Shown one piece after another: positions 19,235-48,686 of a DNA stretch of 64,000 nucleotides. The stretch's first letter is position 1. Each line of letters starts with the position of its first letter. A program made the translations under genes and the position numbers. The stretch is from Haloarcula rubra (GTDB lineage: Archaea > Halobacteriota > Halobacteria > Halobacteriales > Haloarculaceae), in NCBI RefSeq assembly GCF_019599465.1, contig NZ_RKLR01000002.1, positions 558,001 through 622,000 of the forward strand. The letters are read 5' to 3'. Below the pieces are notes generated by a model. The model was not told where the DNA came from. It made no database searches and was given only the letters and a program-made list of their open reading frames with translations.

Positions 19235-19265
19235 GTCGATACGAATCAACAGCCTCCGTGGCTGT

Positions 19266-19280: not shown

Positions 19281-19287
19281 GAATCAC

Positions 19288-21634: not shown

Positions 21635-21637
21635 TTG
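21621..21637 (+). promoter_or_regulatory. Ribosome-binding site deciding the cas6 TTG start
   Basis: GAGGTGAT at 21621-21628, a full match to the anti-Shine-Dalgarno region, lies six bases before TTG 21635. The protein from there (MRILARINARAD) matches the usual Cas6 N-terminus. This is unusual in a haloarchaeon, where most leading genes are leaderless and ATG is preferred. Confidence 0.6.
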
Positions 21638-25608: not shown

Positions 25609-25611
25609 GCC

Positions 25612-28952: not shown

Positions 28953-29509
28953 CCGACCCGTCGGCCGACCCCGTCGACCGGTTTCTCGCCGCCGCTAGAG
29001 ATGAGACCGAGGAACTTCCGTTCCGGCTCACCGGCGTCATGTTTCAGTACTACGTCGTCTGTGAGCGCGAACTCTGGTTCCTCAGCCGCGATATCGAGAT
29101 CGACCGCGACACGCCGACGATCGTCCGCGGGAGCGACGTGGACGACTCGGCGTACTCGGACAAACGTCGAGACGTACGCGTCGACGGGATCATCGCCATC
29201 GACGTGCTGGACAGCGGCGAGATCTTGGAGGTCAAACCCTCCTCGTCGATGACCGAACCGGCGCGGTTGCAGTTGCTGTTCTACCTCTGGTATCTCGACC
29301 GCGTCACCGGCGTCAAGAAGACCGGCGTTCTCGCACATCCGACTGAGAAACGGCGCGAGACGATCAAACTCACTACCGAGACTAGCGGCGAGGTCGAATC
29401 GGCCATTCAGGGGATTCGCGAAGTCGTCACCGCCAAGTCCCCACCGACGGCGGAAGAAAAGCCGGTCTGTGACTCATGTGCGTATCACGACTTCTGCTGG
29501 AGCTGTTGA
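28949..29509 (+). CDS. cas4: Cas4, adaptation nuclease with Fe-S cluster
   Basis: A 186-residue RecB-family nuclease that trims prespacers and helps select those next to a PAM. The Fe-S ligands are visible: one Cys early (YVVCERELWF) and a C-terminal cluster CDSCAYHDFCWSC. Nuclease residues lie in RVDGIIAI and EILEVKPSS (D...E-x-K), and the RecB-like QLLFYLWYL motif follows. There is one more terminal Cys than the usual cluster needs. It starts in the ATGA overlap with cas3; cas1 follows after two bases. Confidence 0.92.
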   Translation: MTDPSADPVDRFLAAARDETEELPFRLTGVMFQYYVVCERELWFLSRDIEIDRDTPTIVRGSDVDDSAYSDKRRDVRVDGIIAIDVLDSGEILEVKPSSSMTEPARLQLLFYLWYLDRVTGVKKTGVLAHPTEKRRETIKLTTETSGEVESAIQGIREVVTAKSPPTAEEKPVCDSCAYHDFCWSC

Positions 29510-29511
29510 TC

Positions 29512-30504: not shown

Positions 30505-30506
30505 CT

Positions 30507-30770
30507 GTGGTCTACGTCGTCGTGGTCTACGACATGGAAGCAGATCGGACCCACAAGATGCTGAAATTCCTCCGTCGGTATCTCACACACGTGCAAAACT
30601 CCGTGCTTGAAGGGGATGTGACCGAGGGAGACCTAGAAAAGATCCGATCCGGTGTCGACGACCTGCTCAAACCCGGAGAATCAACGATCATCTACCGCAT
30701 CTCCTCCGAGAAGATGGTTGATCGAACTGTGTTCGGTGATGATCCCGCCGCTGACGACCAATTTCTATAG
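30507..30770 (+). CDS. cas2: Cas2, adaptation complex subunit
   Basis: An 87-residue ferredoxin-fold protein. The N-terminal VYVVVVYDMEADR contains the beta-1 strand and conserved Asp, followed by MLKFLRRYLTHVQNSVLEG, typical for Cas2. It bridges two Cas1 dimers in the integration complex. The start is taken as GTG 30507 (MVYVVVVYD); three GTG codons at 30495-30503 overlap the cas1 stop and would give a longer odd N-terminus. The array leader begins right after its stop. Confidence 0.9.
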   Translation: MVYVVVVYDMEADRTHKMLKFLRRYLTHVQNSVLEGDVTEGDLEKIRSGVDDLLKPGESTIIYRISSEKMVDRTVFGDDPAADDQFL

Positions 30771-30879
30771 TTCTCCCCTCTTCCATCGACCCCCGGGGGT
30801 CCAGGGATTATCGCGGGTCGACGGAAACGATGAAGTGTGAACGGGCAGTAAAGACGAATACGTGGCCAAATCGGCCATG
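30771..30879 (+). promoter_or_regulatory. CRISPR leader
   Basis: A 109-base gap between the cas2 stop and the first repeat. It holds a perfect 14-base palindrome GACCCCCGGGGGTC (30788-30801), like the C/G block seen in other haloarchaeal leaders. A smaller inverted repeat, TGGCC around AAATC (30863-30877), ends two bases before the first repeat. It should contain the array promoter and the signals for spacer insertion; the degenerate repeat at the far end of the array confirms this is the leader side. Confidence 0.75.
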
Positions 30880-33800
30880 GTTACAGACGGACCCTTGTGG
30901 GGTCGAAGCAAACCCCAACAGGGGTATCTCGTACAGCAAACAGGAGTTACAGACGGACCCTTGTGGGGTCGAAGCGCCGAGAGGGCGACGATGCCGATGA
31001 CCACCTCGCGCGTTACAGACGGACCCTTGTGGGGTCGAAGCGTCGGCCGGCGCCGTCGACGGGTCGCCGCCGCCCGGCGCGTTACAGACGGACCCTTGTG
31101 GGGTCGAAGCACCGTCCAGGTGTGCGTGCCGGCAGTTTTCGCGCTGGTTACAGACGGACCCTTGTGGGGTCGAAGCTGCAACTCGGCCGACGTCCCCCAG
31201 CCCTTGCTCGGTTACAGACGGACCCTTGTGGGGTCGAAGCGGCCAGCGTGACGCCGCCGGTCGGGCTGCTGTTGTTGTTACAGACGGACCCTTGTGGGGT
31301 CGAAGCCCGTTGCTCGTCAGGTTCGGCCACCGAGGGGCGAGTTACAGACGGACCCTTGTGGGGTCGAAGCGACACGGCGTTGTTCGTCTTCGGTGAGGAA
31401 CCCGTCGTTACAGACGGACCCTTGTGGGGTCGAAGCTACACATGGATTCTGGGGTAGGAGATACCGACCGCAGTTACAGACGGACCCTTGTGGGGTCGAA
31501 GCGCCCTCGTCGGGGCCTTCGCCGCGGTGTGGCTGCTGGTTACAGACGGACCCTTGTGGGGTCGAAGCCCCTACCTCGTCAATCGATACTTCTCTCTCGG
31601 TGTTACAGACGGACCCTTGTGGGGTCGAAGCAAGTCCCGCACCATCCGTATGTCTATATTTAATTATGTTACAGACGGACCCTTGTGGGGTCGAAGCTTG
31701 CTCGTATCCGACCACAGTTGATGTGTACAGTGGTTACAGACGGACCCTTGTGGGGTCGAAGCGACGCTGGCCGACTGGTGCGAGCACGTCCGCAACAAGT
31801 TACAGACGGACCCTTGTGGGGTCGAAGCTCGGGGAAAGCCGGCGACGAGACCGACGCTCTCGTTACAGACGGACCCTTGTGGGGTCGAAGCTAGGATTAC
31901 TGTCCCCGGTGTCGATGTCCACCGACTGTTACAGACGGACCCTTGTGGGGTCGAAGCGGCCCTGCGTGGATTGAGTGAGGATTTGCCGAAAATGTTACAG
32001 ACGGACCCTTGTGGGGTCGAAGCTCGCCGTCCGTCACCCCGCAGGAGGGCGTACAGCAGTTACAGACGGACCCTTGTGGGGTCGAAGCGACGTTGACTTC
32101 GTCGGCCGGCGCGATGCCGAACTTGTTACAGACGGACCCTTGTGGGGTCGAAGCGAGGAACTCCAGCGGCATCCGGGTGGGGAACTCCGGTTACAGACGG
32201 ACCCTTGTGGGGTCGAAGCTCTTTCGCTTCGGCGGCCATCTCACGAACCTCTTGTTACAGACGGACCCTTGTGGGGTCGAAGCGACCTGTACACGTACAA
32301 GATGCACCCGTACCTGCCGTTACAGACGGACCCTTGTGGGGTCGAAGCTGGTCCCCGGCGGGGTAATCGTCACGACGCCGTGTTACAGACGGACCCTTGT
32401 GGGGTCGAAGCCCAATTTCGGCGTTGACAATCTGACAGGAGCATGAGTTACAGACGGACCCTTGTGGGGTCGAAGCGCGGTCACGACCCCCGGCTGGCTG
32501 ACGCTGGTTCTCGTTACAGACGGACCCTTGTGGGGTCGAAGCGCCAACTCGGTGTTTCGGGACATCCGGGTCGAGCAGGGTTACAGACGGACCCTTGTGG
32601 GGTCGAAGCTCGGCGAGGTCCTGTCTGGCGTCGTCGCCACCCACGTTACAGACGGACCCTTGTGGGGTCGAAGCGCGTCCGGACAGGTGGCGAACATGCT
32701 GAAGGGCCGAGTTACAGACGGACCCTTGTGGGGTCGAAGCACGGCGCCAGTACCAGTGGCGATGATACAGGAACAGGTTACAGACGGACCCTTGTGGGGT
32801 CGAAGCTCGGTGCCGTCGGTCGCCACCTCGTACAGCGGACTGGTTACAGACGGACCCTTGTGGGGTCGAAGCGACGGGTCGGAGGGGACGACAGCGGGGG
32901 CAGAGGACGTTACAGACGGACCCTTGTGGGGTCGAAGCCGGGCGTTTTCGTTTGTAGAGTCCGCCGCCGGGACGTTACAGACGGACCCTTGTGGGGTCGA
33001 AGCGCCCGGAACATGTACCTCCACGCCCCCGGCGGGACGCGTTACAGACGGACCCTTGTGGGGTCGAAGCAGGTCGCGGAGTTCGCCCGGCGTCATGTTC
33101 GTTGCGGTTACAGACGGACCCTTGTGGGGTCGAAGCCGGTTTTGTCGACGTAGTCCGAGCTCGAGACGTTCGTTACAGACGGACCCTTGTGGGGTCGAAG
33201 CTGCCATACGTAGATAGTACCGCCGATGAATCCGAAGGTTACAGACGGACCCTTGTGGGGTCGAAGCACACCCGATGCACTCTCGACGAAAGAACAGGTT
33301 GACCGTTACAGACGGACCCTTGTGGGGTCGAAGCGGGTGATACAGCGGGTGGTCCGGGTCGTGTGCCTGTTACAGACGGACCCTTGTGGGGTCGAAGCCG
33401 AACGGGTCGCCGCCGAGTACGTCGCCAGTATCAGTTACAGACGGACCCTTGTGGGGTCGAAGCGAGTAGCGAGGTCGTCGTAATAGGCGGCCAACTGCTG
33501 TTACAGACGGACCCTTGTGGGGTCGAAGCAGGGCATAGATTTGGAGGGAACCGGCGGATGCGGAGTTACAGACGGACCCTTGTGGGGTCGAAGCGTGGAT
33601 ACTCCGCCGTCGGTCTGGTTGGCTTTGTTAGTTACAGACGGACCCTTGTGGGGTCGAAGCCCGAAGGTGGCGGGGATGGGGCTAACGGCGAATATGTGTT
33701 ACAGACGGACCCTTGTGGGGTCGAAGCGCCGACCAGTACGACGTCGAACCCGTGATAGAGAGGTTACAGACGGACCCTTGTGGGGTCGAAGCCCGTCGAC

Positions 33801-36427
33801 GGCGCTGTTCGCGATGGCGATCGAGACGAGTTACAGACGGACCCTTGTGGGGTCGAAGCAACCCCCGTCAGAAGGGTCGACAGTACCTTCACCCGGTTAC
33901 AGACGGACCCTTGTGGGGTCGAAGCACTTTCACTCCGGGTCTGGCCGACCTTCTTTAGCACGGTTACAGACGGACCCTTGTGGGGTCGAAGCGCGTGCGG
34001 TCGGCGTCGGGCATCACGCAGGTTATCGTTACAGACGGACCCTTGTGGGGTCGAAGCGAGAATGCGTTCCTGCTGACGACGGATCTCGGCGGGTTACAGA
34101 CGGACCCTTGTGGGGTCGAAGCCAGTCCCGTCGCGGAATAGATACCCATCAATGGGGTTGTTACAGACGGACCCTTGTGGGGTCGAAGCGGTGCCCATGT
34201 ATATTTGGCGGTCGATGAGGTCCTCGTTACAGACGGACCCTTGTGGGGTCGAAGCGAGCTGGCCGCGCCGGGTTCGAGCGTCTCCGTGCCGTTACAGACG
34301 GACCCTTGTGGGGTCGAAGCTCGTAGCTGAGGTACGAGTCGTTGACGGCCTGCTGGTTACAGACGGACCCTTGTGGGGTCGAAGCAGGTCGATGATGTCC
34401 GCTGTCCCTCTGTTGGGATGGTTACAGACGGACCCTTGTGGGGTCGAAGCCGTACCGAGTCTATCGCGTAGTAGGGCTTGAGGCCGTGTTACAGACGGAC
34501 CCTTGTGGGGTCGAAGCTAAGAACTCGTCCAGTGCCTCTCGGCCGTTGAGGTTGGTTACAGACGGACCCTTGTGGGGTCGAAGCCCGCGCTTCGGGCGCA
34601 CGTACCGGGCGAGGTCCTGTTACAGACGGACCCTTGTGGGGTCGAAGCCCGCTTTTGAAGTGCGGAGCGGACGTCGTCGAGTTCGCGTTACAGACGGACC
34701 CTTGTGGGGTCGAAGCGAGGATACTCCCGAGGTCCGTGCCGCCGAGTGTGTTACAGACGGACCCTTGTGGGGTCGAAGCCCGCACCATCGTCGTAGACGA
34801 GTCCGCACGGAATGTCTGTTACAGACGGACCCTTGTGGGGTCGAAGCGAGGAGCGCGTTAAGAACGAGCCATGATGTGCGCAGTTACAGACGGACCCTTG
34901 TGGGGTCGAAGCTCCTCGATCAGGTAGGTCTCGTCGCCTCCGTCGGTGTTACAGACGGACCCTTGTGGGGTCGAAGCTACCTCCGGGAGCCCGCCCGAGT
35001 CGTCGCTAGCGCTGTTACAGACGGACCCTTGTGGGGTCGAAGCCTCGAAAGAGTAACCCGCCGCCCTTTTCGCATTAACGTTACAGACGGACCCTTGTGG
35101 GGTCGAAGCTGGATTATCAGGACTCAGGCCTTGACCCGTGGGAATCGGTTACAGACGGACCCTTGTGGGGTCGAAGCCAGCCATGTTCCCGCCGACCCAC
35201 TCGATCGGACGCGTTACAGACGGACCCTTGTGGGGTCGAAGCCCGCCATGCACGGACCTCGCTGTCAGCGGGGCGCGCGTTACAGACGGACCCTTGTGGG
35301 GTCGAAGCGTCGTCCGCAACATCTTCGACACGGTGCCGTCGTCGTTACAGACGGACCCTTGTGGGGTCGAAGCATGGCTTGCACCCGTCGTCGGCGCGGG
35401 ACTGGTGAGCGTTACAGACGGACCCTTGTGGGGTCGAAGCGACAGGTGGGCCAACGTGGCGTTGTACTGCCGACCGTTACAGACGGACCCTTGTGGGGTC
35501 GAAGCACACAACACCAGCGCGGCGAGGACGTACCGCTAGTTACAGACGGACCCTTGTGGGGTCGAAGCCAGGACAATGCTGACGAGGACCTACCGGGCGT
35601 GACTGGTTACAGACGGACCCTTGTGGGGTCGAAGCCGGCGGCCGACGCCGACGACGGCTGTCCGTGGTGCGGGTTACAGACGGACCCTTGTGGGGTCGAA
35701 GCCTCACCCATCCCATCACACTCGACACGACAGCGTGTTACAGACGGACCCTTGTGGGGTCGAAGCGTTGCTCAGCGCCGTCCACATGTCGTCGGTCGGC
35801 GGTTACAGACGGACCCTTGTGGGGTCGAAGCTCGGCCCAGCTATCCTTAGGCGGGACTATAACGCCGTTACAGACGGACCCTTGTGGGGTCGAAGCATCA
35901 CCGACGACATCCTCGGCAACCTGTTCGCGCTGGTTACAGACGGACCCTTGTGGGGTCGAAGCGAGGTGAAGATAGACGCCTCGCAGGAGGGCAAGGTCGT
36001 TACAGACGGACCCTTGTGGGGTCGAAGCACGGGCAGACATTCGGTGCCTCCTTCGTGGCTCTGGTTACAGACGGACCCTTGTGGGGTCGAAGCGCGTAGT
36101 GTGTGCGTTTCATCTGTTTGTCCTCCACTGCGTTACAGACGGACCCTTGTGGGGTCGAAGCAAACAACAGCTCTCGCCGGACGTCTCCGGGCTCTTGTTA
36201 CAGACGGACCCTTGTGGGGTCGAAGCTTTGAGCGCGTTGAAGTGCCCTTTGTACGCAAGTTGTTACAGACGGACCCTTGTGGGGTCGAAGCCAGCCTCGC
36301 TCGTCGGGGTCGCCGCCGTCGGCTTCGAGGTCGTTACAGACGGACCCTTGTGGGGTCGAAGCTATCGCTTCCACGACCTCACCATCGACGACGCCGAGTT
36401 ACAGACGGACCCTTGTGGGATCAAAGC
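30880..36427 (+). CRISPR. CRISPR array, type I-B, 85 repeats and 84 spacers
   Basis: A 30-base repeat beginning GTTACAGACGG and ending GGGGTCGAAGC recurs from 30880 to 36427. By hand I counted 85 repeats and 84 spacers, mostly 33-38 bases, one of 41 (36292-36332). Every repeat I read is identical except the last (36398-36427), which has two changes near its 3' end, marking the oldest, leader-distal end. The repeat matches the haloarchaeal I-B type (GTTTCAGAC...GTTGAAGC family). Spacers differ from one another. Open frames running through the array are artefacts of the repeat. Confidence 0.98.
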
Positions 36428-36606: not shown

Positions 36607-36759
36607 ATGCCGAAGACACGCGTCAGTCAGGGATCGAACGGGCAGTACAAGGTCACGGTGCCGAAGGGTGTCGCCGAAGCGATGCAACTGGACGGGAAGC
36701 GCCTCGACTGGAAGGTGAAGTCGGGGAGCACCCTAGAGGTGACCATCGTCGATGAGTAG
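36607..36759 (+). CDS. Small AbrB/SpoVT-like DNA-binding protein
   Basis: A 50-residue protein, MPKTRVSQGSNGQYKVTVPK at the start and LEVTIVDE at the end. The pattern QYKVTVPKGVAEAMQL is that of swapped-hairpin AbrB-type transcription factors and antitoxins. It is too small to do more than bind DNA, probably its own promoter. Its stop overlaps the start of the serine recombinase (ATGAGTAG), so the two are co-translated. It may control element genes or recombinase dosage; this is inference. Confidence 0.65.
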   Translation: MPKTRVSQGSNGQYKVTVPKGVAEAMQLDGKRLDWKVKSGSTLEVTIVDE

Positions 36760-37420
36760 CGCCGTCGGCTACACCCGAATCTCCCAGGAGTCGGACACGT
36801 CCATCGACCGCCAGAAGCACCACATCCGCACGTACGCCGACGAGAACGGCCTCAAGCTCGAAGCCATCTACGACGACGGAGAACACTCCTCGGGCTTCGA
36901 CGAGAGCCGAGAGGAGTACCAGCGCGTCCGGGAGCGCGTGCAGTCTGGAGGGATCGCAGCGGTCATCGTCAACGACAAGCGTCGCCTCGCCCGGGACTTC
37001 GACGAGACGATGCGCCTCGTCCTCGATCTCCGCGAACACGACGTTGAGGCGCACACCTTCCAGGAGGGACGACTGGACCTGTCGGACCCGGTGCAGGCCG
37101 CCGTCGAAGTCCTCCAAGCCGCCAGCGAACACGAGGCGAAAAAGAAGGAGATTGAGCGCGCCCGCGAGGCCGTCCAGGAGCGCATTGAGAATGGGTACGA
37201 CCACGGCCGCCCGCCTATCGGCTTCCAGTTCGATGACGCTGGCGAACGGTGGGTGCCGGACCGAGAGGGCCGTTTTGAGCACGTCGTCGAGGCCATCCGC
37301 ATGGTGGAGGACGGAGCGACTTACCGCGACGTCCAAGAAGAGCTGGACATCGCACCCTCAACGATGTCGGGCGTGATGGACCGCCGCGACCGCTACCTCC
37401 AGGAGACTGAGAGCCCATAA
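36752..37420 (+). CDS. Small serine recombinase (resolvase family)
   Basis: A 222-residue recombinase. The catalytic domain begins AVGYTRISQESDTSIDRQKH, with the nucleophile Ser in TRIS, then VIVNDKRRLARDFDETMRL, which supplies the conserved Arg region. The C-terminal part has a helix-turn-helix-like stretch ATYRDVQEELDIAPSTMSGV. It has no large-serine-integrase extension, so it is resolvase/invertase-like. It would act on a res or inversion site, perhaps resolving dimers of a circular form of the element. It overlaps the AbrB-like gene by eight bases. Confidence 0.85.
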   Translation: MSSAVGYTRISQESDTSIDRQKHHIRTYADENGLKLEAIYDDGEHSSGFDESREEYQRVRERVQSGGIAAVIVNDKRRLARDFDETMRLVLDLREHDVEAHTFQEGRLDLSDPVQAAVEVLQAASEHEAKKKEIERAREAVQERIENGYDHGRPPIGFQFDDAGERWVPDREGRFEHVVEAIRMVEDGATYRDVQEELDIAPSTMSGVMDRRDRYLQETESP

Positions 37421-37822: not shown

Positions 37823-39157
37823 TCAGTTGAAGACGAAGAGGTCGTCAATAGAGAGCTCTCCGAGCCACGAATATACCAAATGCTGAAGTGCGACCTCAGA
37901 GACTTCAGGTTCGAACGCGACGCCGTCTGACACGATGAATCCGGAGAGACTGATATCGTCTCGTCCCAACAGGTACGATGAGCTATCCCAACCACCGTGC
38001 CCCGGGTCTGGCTTAGCGAATTCAAAATACCGCATGAGTTCGTAGATTCCGTCGGAGAGAGTGGACCGACTTTCGGTATGTTTGATCTCTCCCAGAATCA
38101 CATGATTTGGTTGGCCATCTGCTTGGTCCATCGGATAGCGCTCTATCACGATGTCGGGCCGGCCTGAATAGAGGGACCGCCTGGTATCGTGATCCATGAT
38201 ATCCCGGTGTCGGTCAAGTGCCCGCCGTGACTGGCGAATATATTGTACGGAATTGTTCTCCGGCACCGGTTCGTGAAAGCGTAGCCGTCCAGTGTTGTCG
38301 TGATAGATTCGATACTCCCAGTTACTGTCAGCCATGACTGCAATCGCGTCGCTGCCACGCTCGATCGATCGTAACGTTACCTCCGCCTGCTCCGAGAAAG
38401 CGTTGAGAAGCTCAAAGATAACGGCCAGTTCAAATAGGGTTGCCGTTTCGGGGACAGATAGGGATTCCAACAGCACCCGCCCAGCGTCATCGTCATCGAA
38501 GTCTCGGGCCAGAAGCCGTTCGTACAGTCGATAGAGGTCGTAGGCTTCATAGTAGAGCGGTTGACGAGATTGCCGGGCCTGATCTAGAGCCTTTGGCGTG
38601 ACCCTGGTATCGCTATCGGCGTTGATCCGGTTCAGGTGGACGTTTCGGTTGTAATGGCGCAGGAAGGACTGGATATTGCCATCGTCCCATCGGTCGCGTC
38701 GCCACTGGTAATCAATCTCCAGCAGCTCACTCCTGGCTGTCTCGGCAATAATCGACAATAAGGCCTTCATCAAGACGTTTTGTGGTAGTTGATACTCAGT
38801 TGTTGCCGACCGTGTCACGAACCTGGATGTATCACCTGGGTGCTCCGAATAGCGTTGTCGGATGGTCTGGCCCCAGTCAATCGCCCCCCGTATTTCCCCA
38901 CGAGTCTCCTCGCTCTCGACTGTGCTGTCGGTTTTTACCCGCCGGAGCCGATCGTGAAGCTCCGACAGGTAGTCCTGAACTGGCTCCGAGAGGGCAAACC
39001 GGATCCTGAGCAACCGATCAAGGTCCTGAATCTGGAGGCCCGTTTTGTCGAGAGCATGTACCAACTGCTCCTGGCCAATCGGCCGCCCCGATTTTAGATA
39101 GGCTATGAGCTCTGTCTGAACCCTCTCAGTGAGGGTTTCACGCGTCGTCTTTGTCAT
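37823..39157 (-). CDS. McrC-like restriction nuclease subunit (PD-(D/E)XK)
   Basis: A 444-residue partner of the McrB-like gene. An N-terminal domain ending EIRGAIDWGQTIRQR then PQNVLMKALLSII is typical for the McrC/DUF2357-like family. The C-terminal nuclease has SGRPDIVIERYP (Asp335), NHVILGEIKHT (Glu357, Lys359) and YELMRYFEF, a complete PD-(D/E)XK site. It would be the DNA-cleaving subunit driven by McrB-type NTP hydrolysis, cutting modified DNA. Its start overlaps the upstream gene by 20 bases. Codon use is visibly more A/T-rich than the chromosome, suggesting transfer. Confidence 0.8.
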   Translation of the reverse strand: MTKTTRETLTERVQTELIAYLKSGRPIGQEQLVHALDKTGLQIQDLDRLLRIRFALSEPVQDYLSELHDRLRRVKTDSTVESEETRGEIRGAIDWGQTIRQRYSEHPGDTSRFVTRSATTEYQLPQNVLMKALLSIIAETARSELLEIDYQWRRDRWDDGNIQSFLRHYNRNVHLNRINADSDTRVTPKALDQARQSRQPLYYEAYDLYRLYERLLARDFDDDDAGRVLLESLSVPETATLFELAVIFELLNAFSEQAEVTLRSIERGSDAIAVMADSNWEYRIYHDNTGRLRFHEPVPENNSVQYIRQSRRALDRHRDIMDHDTRRSLYSGRPDIVIERYPMDQADGQPNHVILGEIKHTESRSTLSDGIYELMRYFEFAKPDPGHGGWDSSSYLLGRDDISLSGFIVSDGVAFEPEVSEVALQHLVYSWLGELSIDDLFVFN

Positions 39158-42100
39158 CGAAGTCGATAGCGAACATATCTTCGGCAGTGGCTTTCAGGGC
39201 CCCTATATCGACACCAGGGGTCACCTCGCGGTCATTGTCGACCTGGCCTTCATCCTCGACACCAGCCTCCGTGTCTTCGGGCTCATGATCTGAGTGGACC
39301 CACTGAATGGTCGTGCTATCGTTTAGCGAATTAATCAGATCTTTCTGCTCATCAGGCCGCAAGCCCTCCAGTTGAGGGTAGACTAGTGATATCACCGCAC
39401 TAGTTAGTGCACTTCCTGCCGCCTCGCTATCATAAGCTGCCGTGTAAGAGACAAGGTCCTCAATAAGGGCGGGACCGATTTCATGGCCGGCGTTGATATT
39501 CGCCCAAAGGACTGCGATTCGATCCCCAATATTGTCGAGAGTTCTAGCCAGTCCGACTGAGTCGTCATCTACATCCTCTTCGATATCCAACTCGGTGGTT
39601 GGGTCGATCGCTAGCCAGGAGGTGGCGTAGTTATCCTTACCAGCTGCCGGATTCAACAGCCAGGCCTGAACGTCACCGTCTTCGATCAGCTCGGGGATGC
39701 CGACATGGATGAACGCGAAGCGCCGCATGAAAGCATAGGACATTTCATAGAGTGAGGCTTTATCTGCCGTGTTCATAGTCCCCAATAGCCGCCATTGCGG
39801 TGTCACAGGATAGCGATCTGGGTTGGTTGCGATCGCTTCCCGCTGTTCCTGGAGGGTCCCGTCATCGACCCAGTCAATCTTCACTGTGTCATCGCGTTCG
39901 TAGGGGAGCTCGACGGAGTCACCGGACAGGACCGAGAACAACTGGCCAAACGCTTTGTCGATATTCGAGCGGTTGAGTTCGTCGATCACCAGCCACCTGG
40001 TCCGGATGTCTCCTTCATCTGTCCGGAAGCACCGTAGGAACTGCCCGGGTGAGAACTTTAGGCTCCCATCTTTTTCATTCTGGCTGGGCATGTAGCCGCC
40101 GACGGTATCGTATGCTGTCCACTCGGCTGTTGCTGTCGTGAACACTGAGCCGTCGATGACCCCTGCCTCAGTCAGCTGGGCACAGACTGCTGTTGCCAGT
40201 TTCGATTTTCCCGTTCCTGGCGGGCCAGTGAACACGATGTGTTTACCGCCGTTCAGCGCTGCTCTGATTTGATTTCGGATCGAAACGGCCTGCTCACTCG
40301 GATAGTAGAGTCCTTCCGGGAGGTCTGGTTCGACCGGTGGTAACGAGAGCCGGTCTTCCAGTCGATCTATATTCTGTTGGGCAGTCCCCAACTGCATGAG
40401 TTTCTCACCAGCCGATTCGGAGACACAATAGAGGTATTCCTGGTTTGGGCCCGAGGGCCCCATCGGATTATACTTCTCCAGGCGATATTTGTCTTGGATG
40501 AAAATCGGATAGAGATCGGTCAACCCGATCGGCTCTTTAAATTGCGTAAAAGTGACATCGATTTGCTGTTTGTATGCTCCATCGACCTCTGTCACGTAAG
40601 CTTCCGACGCAACGACTGAATAGCCGAGTAGCTCCCCGTCGTGATAATTGAAGACGGTGTCACCTACCTCCAGTTTCCCAAGGTTGTGTGACCAGCGCTC
40701 ATCAAGACCCGCCTGCAGGTACTTGTCAGCGACTGGTGCTTTTCCCTCACTCTGGTTCACCCAATAATAGGGGGCGGTTGCAGGGTTGTCGATATCCGGT
40801 AGCGATGGGAGCCGTCGTTGGCCAGATTTGGTTTTCTTCTCGGTCGTTTTAGTCTCCCCATCGCTTAGCCCCAAAGTCGTGTGGAGAGCATCAGCAATCT
40901 CCTGATACGTACGGTCCGTGTCGACAAACGAGCGCTTCCGACACGTTGCGGCGCCGATCTGCTGGTAGGCCTCCTCTGAGAGGGTTTCTAAGGTCCACTG
41001 ATTGAAGACCTCTTGATTGTAGGTGATCGTGATCGGTAGTCCTTGCTCTGCGACCGGGAACCAATCGACTTGGATGAAGCGGTCATGAGGCATTTCAATG
41101 TCGCCATTGTATTCATCGAGGACAGCATCTTGATCGGTCGAATCAAAACCAGCCGTCACGACCCCAAAACCATATACACGGCTCAAGTTGTCTTTCTGTG
41201 AGCCTGCTACGATGAGGTCCCCGTCCTCGATGTTTGTGACGAAATCATAGAGCTGCTGTTCGCTCTGATTCTTCTGCCAGTTTTCACGGACGTCCTGCGA
41301 GGCAGATTGGACATCTGCCAGCTCATGTCCCCCGAACCCAACGGAGGCAATCCCACACTCTGACCATACCTCCCATAGTCCTCCGCCCGAGCCTGGCCCG
41401 ATACGCCACATCTGGCCGGCTGGCATTGTCATCGTCGGTGTAGAGCCGACAGTCTTCAACAACTGTTGATAGGTGCTGATAATGTTTTGTAGATCTTCTC
41501 CGGTAGTATCCTCTGAGGACTGTTTGAATGCAGTCTCACCGTATTCACGATAACAGATCGCCCCACGCCCATACTTTCGGGCCTTTGAAGTATCATTAGT
41601 CAACTCAGGCGACTGTGCGGTGAATCGGTCAGGGACCGTTGCAAGCGCCTCTCTGTAGGATTCGGCAGCTCGGTCTAACAGGTCGTAGGTATTTGCACCC
41701 GACTCTGCGCAATGACTTGCTTTGGTTGCTTCTTGGGCGCCTTGATTCAGGGTTAAAAAGACACTATCTGCAGCCGGGTCAAAAAGAAACACAACATAAA
41801 TTCCGTTTTGGGTACTCGTAGTGTGATTTTTATCGAAGACAGCCACATAAGGGTCATATGCCATTGTCCCCTGGCCCATTCCAGCACGGATTTTGTAATC
41901 GAGGTCTGTCTCGGCGACAAACTCCTTGATTGCAGCCGTCGCTTCACTTTTTAACCAGCCCTGCAGGCGGGGATAGTTCGAAACGCTTCGCTCAGCCTCA
42001 CTTCCGGAGATCTCCTCTTTCGCAGGATACCTCGATGCTATTTCTCCTAATACGTATTTGAGCCCAAGCTCCCTGGGCTTGGGGCCGATCATCGCTGGCG

Positions 42101-43019
42101 TGGCCATGCGCCGTTGGTCCGTGATCGACTCCAGAAGTAATTCGACTTGAGCGGGACCCTCAAACTCCTCTAAACCGTCTTTGTCAACTTCGGTGATCAC
42201 TCGGAGTAGCTGGCCGATCTCAATATTCAGTGACACTTCATGGTCAGTCTCTTCGGTGGCGTGACCACAGAACTCCAGATAGTCAAGCTTGAAATCCTCG
42301 TAATGAACATGAGCCTCGTTGTAATCATCCGTCGAGGGATAACCAAACAGTTCCAAACCAGCTAGCGTCTGGCTGTTTATTGGGGGCGCCTCATCGATGT
42401 GAAACCGGCCGTAGAGCTCCCGAACCATCCACTTCGCATCTAGCTCATCTTCCCATCCAGTGTCATAACTGCTCGCATCCTGGATCTCTCCGATCAAGGT
42501 CGCTAATTCTTCGGGTTCTCGCCCCTTTGTCTCAGTCCACTTCTCGTAGATGTTGCTTCCCGAATCCGTACTGACACCGCTGTTGAGGTGATCCCGGACA
42601 GCCTTGAATGTCTCCAGATCAGGGCTTGAGATAAACGCTTCAACATTAGTCTGAAACCCATCAAAGTCATAGGGGTCCACAAAGTCGAAATGCTCTCCTT
42701 GTGGCTGTTCTTCAGCTACTGCCTGCCACTGCTCAAGCAGTGATTCGCCCTCTTTTGAGACTGACTGAAGTGCCAGGCCATCCGTCTCAAGATCAACGAT
42801 TCTGTAGTCACCTGGGCGAAGGCGTTCGATCGCGCCAATGGATGTCAGGTCCTGAAGGGCCCTCCGCATCGACTGGCGGTGTGTACTAGAAGTAGGAAAT
42901 TGCGACTGTAGCCGAGGCTTTGCCTGGGTAAACAATGCCTCAACACAGAATTCATCCCGCGACGACCACTGCTGAAACCGTTCTATCTCCCGGCAAACGG
43001 CTTCTCCCCAATCTGTCAT
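39138..43019 (-). CDS. McrB-like restriction motor with DUF3578 and two EVE/PUA-like domains
   Basis: A 1293-residue protein. In order: an N-terminal winged-helix-like region (about 15-75); an unassigned helical part; a DUF3578 (MrcB_N) domain (about 365-495) with GQGTMAYDPYVAVFDKNHTT; a first EVE/PUA-like domain (about 535-690) starting QMWRIGPGSGGGLWEVW; a second (about 745-860) starting PYYWVNQSEGK; and a McrB AAA+ domain (about 900-1130). The AAA+ has Walker A GPPGTGKS, Walker B WLVIDELNR and GTMNTADKAS, the McrB form of sensor/nucleotide motif. It should recognise modified cytosines or similar and drive the nuclease subunit. ATG 43019 is supported by an ACAATAAG box centred 27 bases upstream. 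DUF3578 and AAA+ are secure; EVE calls are by pattern. Confidence 0.8.
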   Translation of the reverse strand: MTDWGEAVCREIERFQQWSSRDEFCVEALFTQAKPRLQSQFPTSSTHRQSMRRALQDLTSIGAIERLRPGDYRIVDLETDGLALQSVSKEGESLLEQWQAVAEEQPQGEHFDFVDPYDFDGFQTNVEAFISSPDLETFKAVRDHLNSGVSTDSGSNIYEKWTETKGREPEELATLIGEIQDASSYDTGWEDELDAKWMVRELYGRFHIDEAPPINSQTLAGLELFGYPSTDDYNEAHVHYEDFKLDYLEFCGHATEETDHEVSLNIEIGQLLRVITEVDKDGLEEFEGPAQVELLLESITDQRRMATPAMIGPKPRELGLKYVLGEIASRYPAKEEISGSEAERSVSNYPRLQGWLKSEATAAIKEFVAETDLDYKIRAGMGQGTMAYDPYVAVFDKNHTTSTQNGIYVVFLFDPAADSVFLTLNQGAQEATKASHCAESGANTYDLLDRAAESYREALATVPDRFTAQSPELTNDTSKARKYGRGAICYREYGETAFKQSSEDTTGEDLQNIISTYQQLLKTVGSTPTMTMPAGQMWRIGPGSGGGLWEVWSECGIASVGFGGHELADVQSASQDVRENWQKNQSEQQLYDFVTNIEDGDLIVAGSQKDNLSRVYGFGVVTAGFDSTDQDAVLDEYNGDIEMPHDRFIQVDWFPVAEQGLPITITYNQEVFNQWTLETLSEEAYQQIGAATCRKRSFVDTDRTYQEIADALHTTLGLSDGETKTTEKKTKSGQRRLPSLPDIDNPATAPYYWVNQSEGKAPVADKYLQAGLDERWSHNLGKLEVGDTVFNYHDGELLGYSVVASEAYVTEVDGAYKQQIDVTFTQFKEPIGLTDLYPIFIQDKYRLEKYNPMGPSGPNQEYLYCVSESAGEKLMQLGTAQQNIDRLEDRLSLPPVEPDLPEGLYYPSEQAVSIRNQIRAALNGGKHIVFTGPPGTGKSKLATAVCAQLTEAGVIDGSVFTTATAEWTAYDTVGGYMPSQNEKDGSLKFSPGQFLRCFRTDEGDIRTRWLVIDELNRSNIDKAFGQLFSVLSGDSVELPYERDDTVKIDWVDDGTLQEQREAIATNPDRYPVTPQWRLLGTMNTADKASLYEMSYAFMRRFAFIHVGIPELIEDGDVQAWLLNPAAGKDNYATSWLAIDPTTELDIEEDVDDDSVGLARTLDNIGDRIAVLWANINAGHEIGPALIEDLVSYTAAYDSEAAGSALTSAVISLVYPQLEGLRPDEQKDLINSLNDSTTIQWVHSDHEPEDTEAGVEDEGQVDNDREVTPGVDIGALKATAEDMFAIDFDDKDDA

Positions 43020-43193
43020 AGGAATCAGTTCCTTAGCCAGCACTTATTGTTTTTCCGACAACGCTCGATCATAACATTCAAGCGTTATTCTAACGGAAAA
43101 TTTCGACTTTTCTTGTACATGTATGCCATGCTGGATTAGGAAATGTCAGTCAAAAACCGCAGTGTCACACGGGCATTTCGCCGTATCTATCCT

Positions 43194-43206
43194 CTGTATT
43201 CAGCAC
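43194..43206 (-). repeat. Right member of the 13-base inverted repeat
   Basis: CTGTATTCAGCAC, exact reverse complement of 37605-37617. Confidence 0.4.
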
Positions 43207-43362
43207 ACGACTCGTGGCAGCTTTCGGGCAGATCTCCGAGTGACATGTTCGAGCACTCGTCTGTATTGAACGAGTAGAGGGCGAGAAGAACGAGTGTGAG
43301 ATCCGTTGTATGACACCCTCTCTTCCGTTTGCCTATTTTTACCGACACCTAATTCCTATTTG

Positions 43363-43694
43363 GGCCGCCGGAGCGTGGCCTATAGGCTAACACTGCAGCT
43401 GGCCCTCCGGAGTGGACCCGTTCTTGGCCGGCAGGCACCGCTATCACCCTTCCGAGTGACCCACTTCAAAAAGGCCAACCCATCCACAGAATAGGGCGAA
43501 TATGCTGGCCCCTGAGGCGAATCAGATGGGATCCAGAGTCGATGTTCGCCCGGCTCCTTGACCATCTTCCCCGATATCGCCCAACTCTCGGCCGGTGAAG
43601 CGTGACCTGTGAGCTGGCTGTGCTGCAGCCGGTTTTCCGGGATAGACCCATTCCTGACCGGCAAAAACCGTTTTCGGCCGCCTCAAGTGACACC
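43363..43694 (+). repeat. Diverged direct duplication of about 100 bases
   Basis: 43363-43464 and 43590-43694 align along their length: each starts GGCCG, has AGCGTG(G/A)CC, a CTGCAG block, GACCC(G/A)TTC(T/C)TG(G/A)CCGGCA, and ends in AGTGAC. Many substitutions and small gaps separate them. A weaker third similarity may lie near 43789-43840. Function unknown. Confidence 0.5.
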
Positions 43695-44729
43695 GAAAGT
43701 CCACTCCCGGCAAAGCAAGAGGTGGGATAGGCCGGGCCACGAGCAAACCCCGGTTGACAAGGCCGACCAGACAGGAAGTGGACCGACTAGCTCCCCGATG
43801 TCCACCAATTCTCCCGGCAATCATGCTCTGCTGGCCGACAATTCTGCGCCCGACTGATCATCCTTACCCACTCACGCCATTCATCCTCGATGGACAGTCC
43901 AATTTATCGGCCATCACGGACAGGGCGAGATACTATTGTCCGGGTCTACACACGGTTCTGGTCGTCCAAAGGCGCCGAACCGACTTTGGGACCCGGAACC
44001 GGTGTGACTAGCGCGAGTGTCACCGACTGAACTGGGGATAGCTGGCATCGAACACGATACCAGTCCGCGTAAACCCCGACTTCTCCATCGTTGACGGAGA
44101 CAAATGGGCAGATTGCTCTTACATCGCCACCATCACAGATCGAGGTCGGCCTGGCGCGCAGACACGAACGAACCACTGATTCTGGCAGTCCTCCATATCT
44201 ATGAGCACCGTTGACGGCTTCGCCAATCCAACCGAGAGATATCCGTTCTATCCCGTGAGACGCCGTCTGTGAAAACGGGCCTGTAGGGATGGATGTACTG
44301 GCAGGCGGCGCCCACTGAGACCGCACCAGCGACAGGCACAGTGGGCCGTTCTATTCGCACGACGGGCGCCATTATAATGGCGGGAGCGATAGGCGCTGGC
44401 CTTGTTCGCCTGTCCCTCGCGGGATGCTCCCGATTCGTTGGTTCCCGCTCTATCTCTCTGAGGCACGCCTGTTCCGGTACTCGTTGAGGTGGGCAAGATG
44501 GATCCGACCATTACCGCCACGCCTGGGTCCTTTTTTATTCTTCTCCGCTCTCTCAGTGTGGGTTATCGCCGGCAATTGGGCGGCGAATTGCCTATCCATA
44601 TCGGGCAAGCGGACACGTGGCCGGATCGAATAAGGTGACCGTGACTGCATGCCCGTATTTCCGGCCTTGAGACTCGCAACAGAACCAAATTATCAATTCC
44701 GGCCCGTGAGAAGCGTTCTGATCGGTGGG

Positions 44730-45386
44730 TTATTCTTTGTCAGTGGCCGTGTCGCTGTCCAATATGTCGTCTTCTCGCAGACGTTCCAAATCCTCGTTAT
44801 CGAGATCACCGTGCCTTACCAGAGCACCAATCTCCTTATCGGTGAGCCACTCACCGTCTCGAAGCTTCTCCATCGCGCGCTCGGGGTCGACGAATCGGAC
44901 ACGCCAATCTACCTCGATGTTCACCGACGCAATAGCCGCCTTCTGATGCTCTCCTTCCGTCGCCTTCCGGCTCCGGTTACTCCCTATCTCGATGGCTTCC
45001 TCTAGGAGTCGTTCGAAGTTCACATGAGTGTGCTCAGTGATGCCATAATAGCTGAATGCGAGAGCCCACCGAATACCGTCGTACACCTCGCTGATCTCTG
45101 AACCCTCTGGCGGCTCAGTGATGTCGCTAAATATAGTCTGCAAATCACGGTCATCCAGGTAGTGGAAGAGCAGTTCGAAGTCTACGAGACCGTTCCGTAT
45201 CCGGTCACGCATCCGCTGGCGTAGCTGCGTCTCCGATGCGTCACTGATGTCTTTTTCTCCCAGCAGGTATTCTCGGTCATCGTAGGTGAGAAGTCCCTGG
45301 GGTCGATCATGCGGATCTTTGTTATGCCTGAGCCAGCTCTCCCTTTCGTCCTCGGGGTCATCGTCTAATTCGTCGGTGGTACACAT
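44730..45386 (-). CDS. Haloarchaeal accessory protein of unknown function
   Basis: A 218-residue, charged, soluble protein. The N-terminal DERESWLRHNKDPHDRPQGLLTYDDREYLLGEK is a pattern I associate with hypothetical proteins scattered through haloarchaeal accessory regions. The middle is helical (QRMRDRIRNGLVDFELLFHYL) and the end acidic. A DNA-associated regulatory role is possible but nothing visible proves it. It is divergent from the small gene at 45453 across a 66-base promoter region, a common layout of regulator and target or toxin and antitoxin. Confidence 0.7.
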   Translation of the reverse strand: MCTTDELDDDPEDERESWLRHNKDPHDRPQGLLTYDDREYLLGEKDISDASETQLRQRMRDRIRNGLVDFELLFHYLDDRDLQTIFSDITEPPEGSEISEVYDGIRWALAFSYYGITEHTHVNFERLLEEAIEIGSNRSRKATEGEHQKAAIASVNIEVDWRVRFVDPERAMEKLRDGEWLTDKEIGALVRHGDLDNEDLERLREDDILDSDTATDKE

Positions 45387-45452
45387 GATTAACAGTATGT
45401 ACTAACCATGGGTACACAAAAGCCTAATTACCCGGGATTCATTGAGGGGTGT

Positions 45453-45614
45453 ATGTCGGTGAACTCCGATGAAGGATGGACGTCGATCCCCGTCCGTCCC
45501 AGTACTCGAGACAAAGTGAGCGATGTCAAGGACACCGGAGAATCTTGGAGTGACACCCTGGAACGCCTACTTGAGGAGGGCAACACACAGGAACCACTAA
45601 GATCTCCGAATTAA
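45453..45614 (+). CDS. Small antitoxin-like (VapB/DUF7557-like) protein
   Basis: A 53-residue protein, MSVNSDEGWTSIPVRPSTRD then SWSDTLERLLEEGN. The pattern of a beta strand with IPVRPSTRDKV, followed by a W-S-D-T-L-E-R-L-L helix, is that of short ribbon-helix-helix/VapB-type antitoxins in haloarchaea. No PIN toxin follows it, so it is an orphan or a plain regulator. ATG 45453 follows a purine-rich GAGGGGT. It is divergent from the 44730-45386 gene. Confidence 0.55.
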   Translation: MSVNSDEGWTSIPVRPSTRDKVSDVKDTGESWSDTLERLLEEGNTQEPLRSPN

Positions 45615-45938
45615 AGATATCGCTCAACGCGTCTGAATCGTCCAACGACAGGCACCACCCGTAGAACGGGAGGCCGCTCGGGTGTCCTACCACCCGTCAC
45701 CGTGGCCCGTCGTTGAAACAACCGATATGGGAGCCGTCCTATACGCACGTACAACAGGACGACCGTGTTAACACATTAGCAATCGTTGCTAATGAGAGTT
45801 CGGGTTCGTTCTGTTTTCGGCGGCTCCGGTCTCGCCGGCCTAACCGGCCCATCACCGGACTATGGAAAGCAAAAACGATGGACTGATCATAGCGGATCGC
45901 CCCGAAGAAACGACTCTCACCGAGCGAGGTGCCGGCCG
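45615..45938 (+). promoter_or_regulatory. Intergenic region with two strong palindromes
   Basis: About 320 bases without a convincing gene. GTGTTAACAC (45765-45774) abuts a perfect inverted repeat with nine-base arms CATTAGCAA / TTGCTAATG and a TCG centre (45774-45794). Together they make a 30-base symmetric block, a good operator candidate for the small genes downstream. Another GC-rich inverted repeat may lie near 45656-45720. Confidence 0.5.
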
Positions 45939-46085
45939 ATGATAGAGCGGTTCGGCCACGACAAGATTCGACTCGTCAAGTGTCCCGCTTGTGGGGTCGA
46001 CCTACGTGACAAGAAAGCCTCCTTCCACGTCGAGAGCCACACGCCGAACGACTTCGGACTGTCACCGCAGGGGGTGATTCAATGA
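45939..46085 (+). CDS. C2H2-type zinc-finger micro-protein
   Basis: A 48-residue protein with one finger, CPACGVDLRDKKASFHVESH, spacing C-x2-C-x11-H-x3-H, close to a classical C2H2 finger. Small C2H2 proteins of this kind occur in haloarchaeal viruses and integrated elements, usually as presumed DNA-binding regulators. GAGGTG eight bases before ATG 45939 supports the start. It overlaps the next gene by four bases (ATGA). Confidence 0.7.
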   Translation: MIERFGHDKIRLVKCPACGVDLRDKKASFHVESHTPNDFGLSPQGVIQ

Positions 46086-46270
46086 CGGCGAAGAGAGCAG
46101 ACGGGGACCAGTTCGTTCAGGAGAACAAGGAGACGCTCGTTCGTATCCTCAAGCACGGAAACGACGAGTTCGTCCGCGCACTTGCACTGAGTGCGCTGGT
46201 CCGGTACGGAAACGAACCGCTCCTCCACGACGTTGAAGCGGAGATCGAGCGCGCCAAGGAGGAGGTGTAG
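46082..46270 (+). CDS. Small helical protein of unknown function
   Basis: A 62-residue protein, predicted all-helical, with ETLVRILKHGNDEFVRALAL resembling a single HEAT-like helical hairpin. It is co-translated with the C2H2 micro-protein through an ATGA overlap and converges on the integrase gene 11 bases further on. No family assignment; position suggests an element-regulation role such as excision control, which is only inference. Confidence 0.55.
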   Translation: MTAKRADGDQFVQENKETLVRILKHGNDEFVRALALSALVRYGNEPLLHDVEAEIERAKEEV

Positions 46271-46281
46271 CCGTGTCTGTT

Positions 46282-47529
46282 TCAGTTGCCGCCGGCACTC
46301 GCGAACTCCCGTGCTTCACGGAGGAGTTCGGGGTTCTCGTCGCCGAGTTCGATGAACCGCTCGACGTTTTCGAGATTGCCGAGAAGCTCGGGATCGTCGC
46401 GAGCGATTCGGAGCAGCTCGGCACGGGTCTCTCGTTGGTCCGCTTCCAGCTCTTCGACCGCTGCGGTGTCCATCGCCTGACTACACCAGACACAGGTGGG
46501 TTCGTCACGAGGGGTTTCGTTCCGGCATCGTGGGCACGTCACCGGCGCAATTGGGTCGGACTCGTCTTCCTCGACGTCGACGCCGTGGGCCTGCGCGATA
46601 GCGCGGTCGTTAGCGTCACCGAAGACAGCGACATAGCGAGAGGCGACCTTCGAGCCGCGGTCCCAGCCGTGATGGTCCTCGATGTGGGCCTGATTCACGC
46701 CGTCGGAAGCGAGGTAGGACGCCGACGACTTCCGCATCCGGGTGAACGTCACGTCGGCGTGCGTGATGCCAGCCTTCCGGGCGTGCTTCTTGAGAATCTT
46801 GAGCTTCATCTGGTAGCTGATGTCCTCGGGCTTGCTCAGTTTGGACCAGAGCGGGGCCTCTGGCTGGTTCTTGCCCGGATGGACGCTCAGCCACTGCTGG
46901 AGGAAAGGGACGGCGGTCGTGAGGATGACCGACCGCTCGCCCTTCTTCCCGTCGACGGAGATACGCAGGCCGTATTTGTGGTCAGAAACGTCTCCGACGG
47001 AGAGGTTCCGGATTTCCCCGCTACGGGCTCCAGAGTCCCAGGCGACGGCGATGAGCGCCTTGTCTCGGGCGTGGCGGCACTCTTCGAGCATGGGCTTGAT
47101 ATGTTCGTCCCACCAGAGCATCTTCGCCGGGTTCGGCATGGGGTTGTAGTCCTTCGACGTGGTCGCGGAGACCCACGCGATACTGTCGGGAATCTCGTCG
47201 CCGTCGCTGACGTGCTTCCCGAACATTCGCAGCGCGACTCGGTAATCCCGGTTGGACTCTTCGTTGTCGTAGGTGTCGTGAATCCAGCGGACGATGTCCT
47301 CGGCCGCCCGCTTGTCGTCGAGGGCGTCAGCCAGTCCACCGACTTCCTCGGCGATGCGTACACAATGCCTGAGGAGCTTCTCACGGCGCTCCTTGCCGTA
47401 CTGACTCCCGAGCAGGGCCAGTCGGTTGTCGAAGGCCTGCAGTACGTCTCGGTTGTCTCCACTCATCTCCTCGGCGCGCTCAATGCGGCCCTGCAGATTC
47501 TCGATGCGACGATCTGCGTTTCTCGTCAT
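46282..47529 (-). CDS. int: Tyrosine integrase of the tRNA-Phe element
   Basis: A 415-residue tyrosine recombinase. A SAM-like core-binding domain lies at about 40-130. The catalytic domain (about 135-305) has Arg169 in SGARSGEIR, an Arg in FTRMRKSSAS (about 264-266), a His in HHGWD (about 286-289) and the nucleophile Tyr299 in SRYVAVF. A C-terminal tail holds a zinc knuckle pair (CPRC and CVWC, about 335-352) and a helical end. The gene starts 45 bases inside attR, the usual place for an integrase. It should insert the element into tRNA-Phe and, with a helper, excise it. Confidence 0.9.
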   Translation of the reverse strand: MTRNADRRIENLQGRIERAEEMSGDNRDVLQAFDNRLALLGSQYGKERREKLLRHCVRIAEEVGGLADALDDKRAAEDIVRWIHDTYDNEESNRDYRVALRMFGKHVSDGDEIPDSIAWVSATTSKDYNPMPNPAKMLWWDEHIKPMLEECRHARDKALIAVAWDSGARSGEIRNLSVGDVSDHKYGLRISVDGKKGERSVILTTAVPFLQQWLSVHPGKNQPEAPLWSKLSKPEDISYQMKLKILKKHARKAGITHADVTFTRMRKSSASYLASDGVNQAHIEDHHGWDRGSKVASRYVAVFGDANDRAIAQAHGVDVEEDESDPIAPVTCPRCRNETPRDEPTCVWCSQAMDTAAVEELEADQRETRAELLRIARDDPELLGNLENVERFIELGDENPELLREAREFASAGGN

Positions 47530-47574
47530 CTACATGGGGGGATGTCATACCGGCATGTAAACCACCAGTTGAGG

Positions 47575-47589
47575 TCCGGGAGGCGGCAT
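47575..47589 (+). other. attR, right attachment site (tRNA-Phe tail copy)
   Basis: TCCGGGAGGCGGCAT, identical to the tRNA-Phe end at 18427-18441. Upstream of it the match fades (GTTGAGG against GTTCAAA), so only the 3' part of the T arm is duplicated. Confidence 0.75.
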
Positions 47590-47792
47590 TTTCCTGCAGT
47601 TCGTTCCGTATCGACCGGACAGCGACCGCGTTCGACTGAAGTCGTCTCATCCGCCCTGAGATTACGTCGTCCTCCAACTCGCGCGCCGTCGTAATCTGGC
47701 GATTCACTCGCATTCGAGCCCGGCGCGCCCACGAGAGTACGGGCGACGTGAGGACGCGGGATTGAACAGGCCGGCTGGCAAACGACGTGGCG

Positions 47793-48686
47793 ATGTCAAC
47801 GTCCTCGTCACGGCGCGACGACGCCGCCGGGTTTCTCTCGTATCACGACATCTTGGAGCGAGAGATGGTCGACGCGCTCCGAGAGATCGACCGCCCACAG
47901 TCGGCGGTGTTCGTCTCCGGACTGGCCGCTGGCCTGAATGTGAGCTTCGGCGCACTGTTCATCGGAATGGTCCTGTCCTTCTCCGGCGGGTTCGAGTCGG
48001 CACTGGTCCAACAGGTCGCGCTCGCCGGCGCGTCGACCATCGGGTTCCTGTTCGTCATCCTCGGGCAGACGGAACTGTTCACCGCCCACACCACGATGGC
48101 GATACTGCCGGTGCTGGACGGACGGGCGTCGCTCGGGGAGATGGGACAGCTCTGGACGACGGTCTACGTCGCGAACCTGCTGGGCTGTGGCGGGTTCGCG
48201 CTGCTCATCGCGACCCTGGGGCCGTCGCTGCAAATCGTGGACCCGTCGGCCTACGGGGCGCTCGCGGCGAACCTCCTCCCATTCTCGGGGCCGACCATCA
48301 TGTTCAGCGGCGTCGTCGCGGGCTGGTTGATGGGGCTGGTCACGTGGCTGGTCGCCGCCACGGAGGACACCGTCAGTCGCTTCTTCATCGTCGTGTTCGT
48401 CACGGGCGGCATCGGGTTCGCACCGTTCCACCACGCGCTGCTCGGGACGACGGAGGTGCTGACGGCGGCGCTCCTCGGCCAGGGCGTGACGGTCGGGGGC
48501 TTCCTCCGCTTCCTCGCGTGGACCACCGTCGGCAACATCGTCGGCGGGTCGGTGTTCGTCGGGCTGCTCAACTACGGGCACGTCGCGTTGACCGACCGCT
48601 CGGAGTACGACCTCTCGGATAGCGACGACGCCACGGAGGGGGAGGAGGCAGACCACGGGGAACCGTCCGGGACGACCGGCGACTGA
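47793..48686 (+). CDS. Formate/nitrite transporter (FNT) family channel
   Basis: A 297-residue membrane protein with six predicted helices. Segments VFVSGLAAGLNVSFGALFIG, GFLFVILGQTELFTAHTTMAIL and VVFVTGGIGFAPFHHALLGTTEVL follow the FNT pattern, including the conserved central filter region. The family conducts small anions such as formate, nitrite or hydrosulfide; haloarchaeal members are uncharacterised. The acidic tail (about 270-297) is cytoplasmic. ATG 47793 is two codons inside a GTG alternative. It is the first chromosomal gene after attR. Confidence 0.82.
   Translation: MSTSSSRRDDAAGFLSYHDILEREMVDALREIDRPQSAVFVSGLAAGLNVSFGALFIGMVLSFSGGFESALVQQVALAGASTIGFLFVILGQTELFTAHTTMAILPVLDGRASLGEMGQLWTTVYVANLLGCGGFALLIATLGPSLQIVDPSAYGALAANLLPFSGPTIMFSGVVAGWLMGLVTWLVAATEDTVSRFFIVVFVTGGIGFAPFHHALLGTTEVLTAALLGQGVTVGGFLRFLAWTTVGNIVGGSVFVGLLNYGHVALTDRSEYDLSDSDDATEGEEADHGEPSGTTGD

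Follow-up and report, generated by a model that had tools for sequence, protein, structure and literature searches.

A stretch of 64,000 nucleotides from Haloarcula rubra (contig NZ_RKLR01000002.1, positions 558,001–622,000), referred to here in its whole length as the window, contains a two-gene McrBC system of the NxxD branch, whose motor subunit consists of six modules in the order winged helix (wH), N2, MrcB_N/DUF3578, EVE1, EVE2, and McrB AAA+. We consider it probable that this is a modification-dependent (type IV) restriction system located on an island, in which an exchangeable N-terminal array of readers chooses the target. The folds and composition of the domains, the intact catalytic motifs, the pairing of the two genes, and the shuffling of modules are established here, and up to four candidate readers would be gathered in one motor, for both adenine and cytosine modification.

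A six-module motor and its nuclease partner

The mcrB-like and mcrC-like frames are both open, without stop or frameshift, and all modules of the McrB-like protein are in frame and at full length (Table 1). A first-pass annotation, made from the letters alone, had already described here a 1293-residue subunit with MrcB_N/DUF3578, two EVE/PUA-like modules, and a McrB AAA+ with an NTAD motif, overlapping by 20 bases with a PD-(D/E)XK McrC-like partner; every one of these elements was recovered in our analysis, down to the exact length of the overlap.

Regarding the motor core, which carries both Walker motifs, the AAA_5 family of Pfam matches residues 927–1101 with an expectation value (E) of 4.8e-13, and the best solved relatives of this part are McrB chains (PDB 6hz4, E 2.8e-8). 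The NCBIfam McrB model scores E 3.3e-10 on the motor, under the curated cut-off of that model, and PADLOC made no McrBC call on the locus, giving weak AAA matches only. The AAA+ signature NTAD is of the NxxD type, and membership in the CoCoNuT group, whose motor is NxD (PMC11090510), was rejected.

The identification of the 444-residue protein as McrC comes from its relatives, an invariant motif, a profile match to PF10117, and the operon layout. The H. rubra copy has the motif GRPD...GEIK, of which GRPD (332–335), E357, and K359 are invariant in 31 relatives, and the predicted PD-(D/E)XK site is intact. The McrC-like profile aligned with haloarchaeal PF10117 proteins at E 1e-5 by hhalign (control profiles 0.4–0.5), with a match that spans only part of the N-terminal region, and it found no match in PDB. 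Pfam matches to McrBC, DUF2357, or PDDEXK families appeared in three of the 31 relatives, none of them being the H. rubra copy.

Table 1. Features of the H. rubra McrBC locus and its surroundings, numbered from the first nucleotide of the window.
Feature	Position	Strand	Details
mcrB-like motor gene	39138–43019	minus	ATG start, 1293 residues; alternative GTG at 43043, 1301 residues
Winged helix, DpnI C-terminal (N6-methyladenine reader) type	42768–43019	minus	residues 1–84; profile and model topology
N2, all-helical domain	42120–42737	minus	residues ~95–300 (~210 residues); relatives and model
MrcB_N/DUF3578 (PF12102; 'ADAM')	41460–41966	minus	residues 352–520; Pfam E 1.2e-29
EVE1, EVE/YTH fold	40893–41447	minus	residues 525–709; AlphaFold2, Foldseek, and profile comparison
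EVE2, relative of VcaM4I EVE domain	40356–40802	minus	residues 740–888; profile match to 6yex
McrB AAA+ core	39300–40322	minus	residues ~900–1240; Walker A GPPGTGKS 932, Walker B LVIDE 1010, MNTAD 1082, RRF 1099
mcrB/mcrC reading-frame overlap	39138–39157	minus	exactly 20 bases
mcrC-like nuclease gene	37823–39157	minus	444 residues
Serine resolvase	36752–37420		flanks McrBC locus
MCM gene, then type I-B CRISPR-Cas (cas6, cas8b/TM1802, cas7, cas5, cas3, cas4, cas1) and array	19258–36427		directly beside McrBC pair
Tyrosine integrase/recombinase	46282–47529		flanks McrBC locus

The N-terminal array of candidate readers

The MrcB_N/DUF3578 domain scores 103.7 bits in Pfam, against a curated cut-off of 25, and as a single sequence it gave no match in PDB. 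In E. coli McrB, this is the methylcytosine-binding domain. Residues 365–495, which the first-pass annotation had named for a profile search, correspond to this very domain and not to a third EVE. The distance from the MrcB_N match to the EVE1 match is exactly 16 residues in seven out of nine proteins (H. rubra, L157, L216, L219, L220, L221, and L223), a constant spacing which suggests that both domains make up a rigid composite reader.

Modelled alone by AlphaFold2 from 12 aligned sequences, EVE1 is predicted to fold as an EVE/YTH domain (predicted local distance difference test, pLDDT, 78; predicted template modelling score, pTM, 0.75). The PDB matches listed by Foldseek for this model are EVE and YTH structures, among them PH1033, 4u8t, YTHDF2, VcaM4I, and 2eve, the best being 1wmm (E 3.5e-4), and when the EVE1 profile was compared with that of tandem EVE-type domains from related McrB proteins, E was 3e-6. 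The Pfam EVE family, which has no direct match in the H. rubra EVE1 sequence, matches 17 of the 33 members of the wider set. A plant allergen (7u1h) that came at the top of two PDB profile searches for EVE1 was dismissed, being judged a low-complexity match. In Halorussus halobius (L075, 3673–4557) a separate EVE1-type protein of 294 residues is encoded upstream of another McrB-like gene.

For EVE2, the sole match of the family profile in PDB was the EVE-HNH endonuclease VcaM4I (6yex, E 3.2e-9). Compared with the base-pocket residues of this enzyme (E15, P24, W82, Q128, and Y130; PMC7897488), EVE2 keeps equivalents of Q128 and Y130 and has Gly at the position of P24; the pocket predicted from these residues, taken together with those considered below, is partly degenerate.

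The first 320 residues, on which the initial annotation made no remark, comprise a wH of the DpnI type and a separate helical domain. A profile of nine wH sequences recovered DpnI from PDB (4esj/4kyw, E 1.2e-6), with the next match at E 0.13, and Pfam DpnI_C matches eight of these nine relatives, the H. rubra copy reaching E 0.0027, under the cut-off. The topology in the model, at modest confidence, is helix-strand-helix-helix-strand-strand. Relatives of this wH make up the N-terminal part of HNH_2 nucleases in haloarchaea, and three further McrB-like proteins with MrcB_N begin with one as well. With the DpnI numbering fixed by the K-x-R-x-x-x-Q pattern, R52 corresponds to DpnI R231 and Q56 to DpnI Q235. 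In DpnI and HHPV4I a wH of the same type binds Gm6ATC (PMC4117772, PMC10101028), haloarchaeal and viral wH-HNH enzymes carrying it are N6-methyladenine dependent (PMC10101028, PMC11037411), and several of the haloarchaeal ones restrict Dam-methylated DNA (PMC11037411). The H. rubra wH is thus a candidate N6-methyladenine (6mA) reader. Three recognition surfaces had been proposed at first; DUF3578 and the two EVE modules are indeed present, but the count was too low, the DpnI-type wH being a fourth candidate.

The second domain, N2, is common to other haloarchaeal McrB-like proteins and to stand-alone proteins of ~470 residues, and its profile (24 sequences) found no match in Pfam or PDB. The motif YPIIN...GL..FGY and weak Foldseek matches to MutY (E 0.3–1.6) pointed to a dead HhH-GPD glycosylase, but hhalign against HhH-GPD proteins gave E 0.3, no better than controls (0.1–0.6), which leaves a glycosylase-like fold unsupported. 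In the stand-alone haloarchaeal proteins (L136, L141–L147, L151, and L155) the N2-type helical domain is followed by a C-terminal half in which a similar motif recurs, a possible tandem; those of them that were scanned showed no Pfam family.

Module exchange in haloarchaea and genomic setting

Our distribution set consisted of 391 haloarchaeal genomes, in which the motor core (counted at E ≤ 1e-60) was present in 95 and a McrC-like protein in 127. MrcB_N is rare, appearing in 18 genomes, six of which (H. rubra included) combine it with at least two EVE domains and the AAA+ core; DUF3578 with at least one EVE-type domain was found in about a dozen, and a McrC-like gene adjoins most MrcB_N-bearing loci. 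These architecture counts are lower bounds, since some of the loci are cut at their 5' end. The exact order wH-N2-MrcB_N-EVE1-EVE2-AAA had no second case in this set. The original statement that the order is unlike described archaeal systems holds, within this set, for the exact order, but not in its wider sense: DUF3578-EVE-EVE2-McrB exists in Halorhabdus tiamatea, the same modules are reordered in many haloarchaea, and EVE-McrB and wH-NTPase/McrC fusions are already in the literature. Viral contigs searched with the whole McrB-like protein and with the N2 profile contained no relatives.

In the tree of 98 motor domains there are 27 domain orders, and 10 changes are required to explain where MrcB_N occurs, of which well-supported branches force nine or more; it follows that reader modules have been exchanged on a common motor. 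The H. rubra motor is sister to those of Natrialba aegyptia and one other, both with arrays lacking MrcB_N and wH.

The locus lies in a stretch of low guanine-cytosine (GC) content, 53–62% vs. 64–71% in the flanks, and this, together with the flanking resolvase and tyrosine integrase, places it in an integrated island, although positions 43000–48200 yielded no clear att repeat. The neighboring CRISPR array has 85 near-identical repeats. Upstream of mcrB, a region of ~1.7 kb (43044–44729) has no convincing open reading frame and contains GC-rich repeats that have diverged; it may represent decayed genes or have a regulatory role. The host genome encodes one C5 methyltransferase, one N6/N4 methyltransferase, and several HsdM-like genes; no D12 (Dam-type) gene was found in it, other Dam families not having been searched, so a reader of Gm6ATC would not obviously hit self DNA.

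Proposed mechanism, alternatives, and known systems

By analogy with E. coli and Thermococcus gammatolerans McrBC (PMC7680126), the AAA+ core would form a hexamer that binds and hydrolyses guanosine triphosphate (GTP) and translocates DNA, and the McrC-like subunit would stimulate this motor and cut through its PD-(D/E)XK site. Target choice would be left to the N-terminal array, with the wH for 6mA, N2 as a spacer or reader, and DUF3578 plus EVE1, and EVE2, as candidate readers. From what is known of these families, DUF3578 would read modified cytosine, the DpnI-type wH N6-methyladenine, and the EVE domains would flip the modified base. With several readers per hexamer, the system could capture foreign DNA whichever of several modifications it carries, which appears to be the most likely use, and the readers may cooperate. 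Only tentatively would we go one step further and propose that one hexamer, in which as many as 24 reader domains may come together, restricts adenine- or cytosine-marked DNA or needs the combination of both, haloarchaea tuning this by module shuffling. Modification-dependent systems have usually been described with one reader for a single class of base; if our proposal is true, methyladenine, methylcytosine, and two EVE readers would let one enzyme watch several modification types. A multi-reader motor would also make it directly testable whether the readers of a McrB ring work independently, as alternatives, or jointly as one code, and the haloarchaeal set, in which related motors carry so many domain orders, offers a panel for tests of this kind.

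Several observations weigh against restriction directed by such an array. The McrC-like protein of H. rubra has no direct match in Pfam, PDB, NCBIfam, or PADLOC. In the wH, S50 replaces DpnI K229. In EVE2, the position of E15, the Glu through which VcaM4I contacts the base, is taken by Pro, whereas 17 of 20 relatives keep the Glu; nor does the family conserve the W82 wall. Lastly, the SRA of HHPV4I, one of its two reader-type domains, seems inactive (PMC10101028), and extra readers can therefore be passengers.

A lesser but real possibility is a McrBC with a single live reader, most likely DUF3578 plus EVE1, in which wH, N2, and EVE2 would be passengers that have degenerated, or serve as spacers or for DNA binding in general. 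The partly lost EVE2 pocket, the wH without a K229 equivalent and departing from the LQELRD motif, the apparently inactive SRA of HHPV4I (PMC10101028), the constant link that sets the MrcB_N-EVE1 pair apart, and the free gain and loss of reader modules would all fit this alternative, although every module is full length and in frame, the equivalents of DpnI R231/Q235 and VcaM4I Y130/Q128 are kept, and restriction of Dam-methylated DNA is known for wH-HNH enzymes with a wH of this type (PMC11037411). We also considered whether this could be an ordinary EVE-McrB within existing surveys, its length being the sole oddity. In defence, EVE-McrB is the most frequent EVE architecture, present in nearly 300 genera and often with extra domains (PMC7641849), and the dozen or so haloarchaeal genomes joining DUF3578 to at least one EVE-type domain point in the same direction; this reading is nonetheless unlikely, as the parts consulted of two surveys describe no motor that has a DpnI-type wH together with DUF3578 and two EVE domains, and the exact order was found nowhere else in the haloarchaeal set. 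It is highly improbable that the array recognizes RNA, modified or structured, by reading of the YTH/EVE type, in a CoCoNuT-like system acting on RNA or triggering abortive infection, for even if EVE1 is as close to YTH m6A-RNA readers as to EVE proteins and YTH-like domains occur in CoCoNuTs (PMC11090510), the motor is NxxD and not NxD, the two-gene unit has no further nuclease gene, both DUF3578 and wH domains of the DpnI type read DNA, the PD-(D/E)XK site is intact, and CoCoNuTs are nearly absent from archaea (PMC11090510).

The DNA-restricting McrBC with an exchangeable array that we favor has its closest counterpart on plasmid pHTIA of Halorhabdus tiamatea SARL4B (L156; WP_008528582.1/WP_008528581.1), with the same MrcB_N-EVE1-EVE2-AAA order, collinear with H. 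rubra residues 318–1288 at 36% identity and directly followed by a McrC-like gene. This protein, annotated merely as 'DUF3578 domain-containing protein', lacks wH and N2, and its EVE1 is more divergent. On the same plasmid (L156, 3246–13227) the McrBC pair, whose McrB is without a DpnI-type wH, comes after a small gene and one for an AAA ATPase, spaced as in an operon, and has a Dam-type methyltransferase in its vicinity. The plasmid-encoded WP_331232219.1 of Halalkalicoccus sp. CGA53 (L157, 1285 residues) also has MrcB_N, EVE1, N2, EVE2, and AAA with an adjacent McrC, but in the order MrcB_N-EVE-N2-EVE2-EVE-AAA, with a third EVE and no wH. The nearest motor domains on the tree, those of N. 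aegyptia DSM 13077 (L002) and its relatives L083 and L084 (98% in the Shimodaira-Hasegawa-like approximate likelihood ratio test, SH-aLRT), are 42% identical over EVE1-EVE2-AAA and 51–53% in McrC, although without MrcB_N or a DpnI-type wH and with a diverged N2-like region.

Among better known systems, McrBC of E. coli K-12 shares the DUF3578 reader, the NxxD GTPase AAA+, and a PD-(D/E)XK McrC in the next gene, but has a single reader, a much shorter McrB, and a very distant McrC sequence. T. gammatolerans McrBC (YTH-McrB, with a 6mA reader) is likewise an archaeal NxxD McrB with a reader of the EVE superfamily, in this case a lone YTH without DUF3578, wH, or second EVE. DpnI, the haloarchaeal wH-HNH enzymes, and HHPV4I have a wH of the same family, but unlike the H. 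rubra McrB they are nucleases independent of nucleoside triphosphates, without AAA+ motor. CoCoNuTs belong to the McrBC family too, some with a YTH-like reader, and differ in their NxD motor, coiled coils, HEPN nucleases, predicted RNA target, and near absence from archaea (PMC11090510). NTD-wH-NTPase fusions paired with McrC-like proteins have been mentioned as uncharacterised (PMC11037411). McrBC, EVE-McrB (PMC7641849), and wH-NTPase/McrC (PMC11037411) are thus known kinds, and relative to these a motor that combines DUF3578 and two EVE domains with a wH of the DpnI type is new, an uncommon combination of readers within a known and highly shuffled family.

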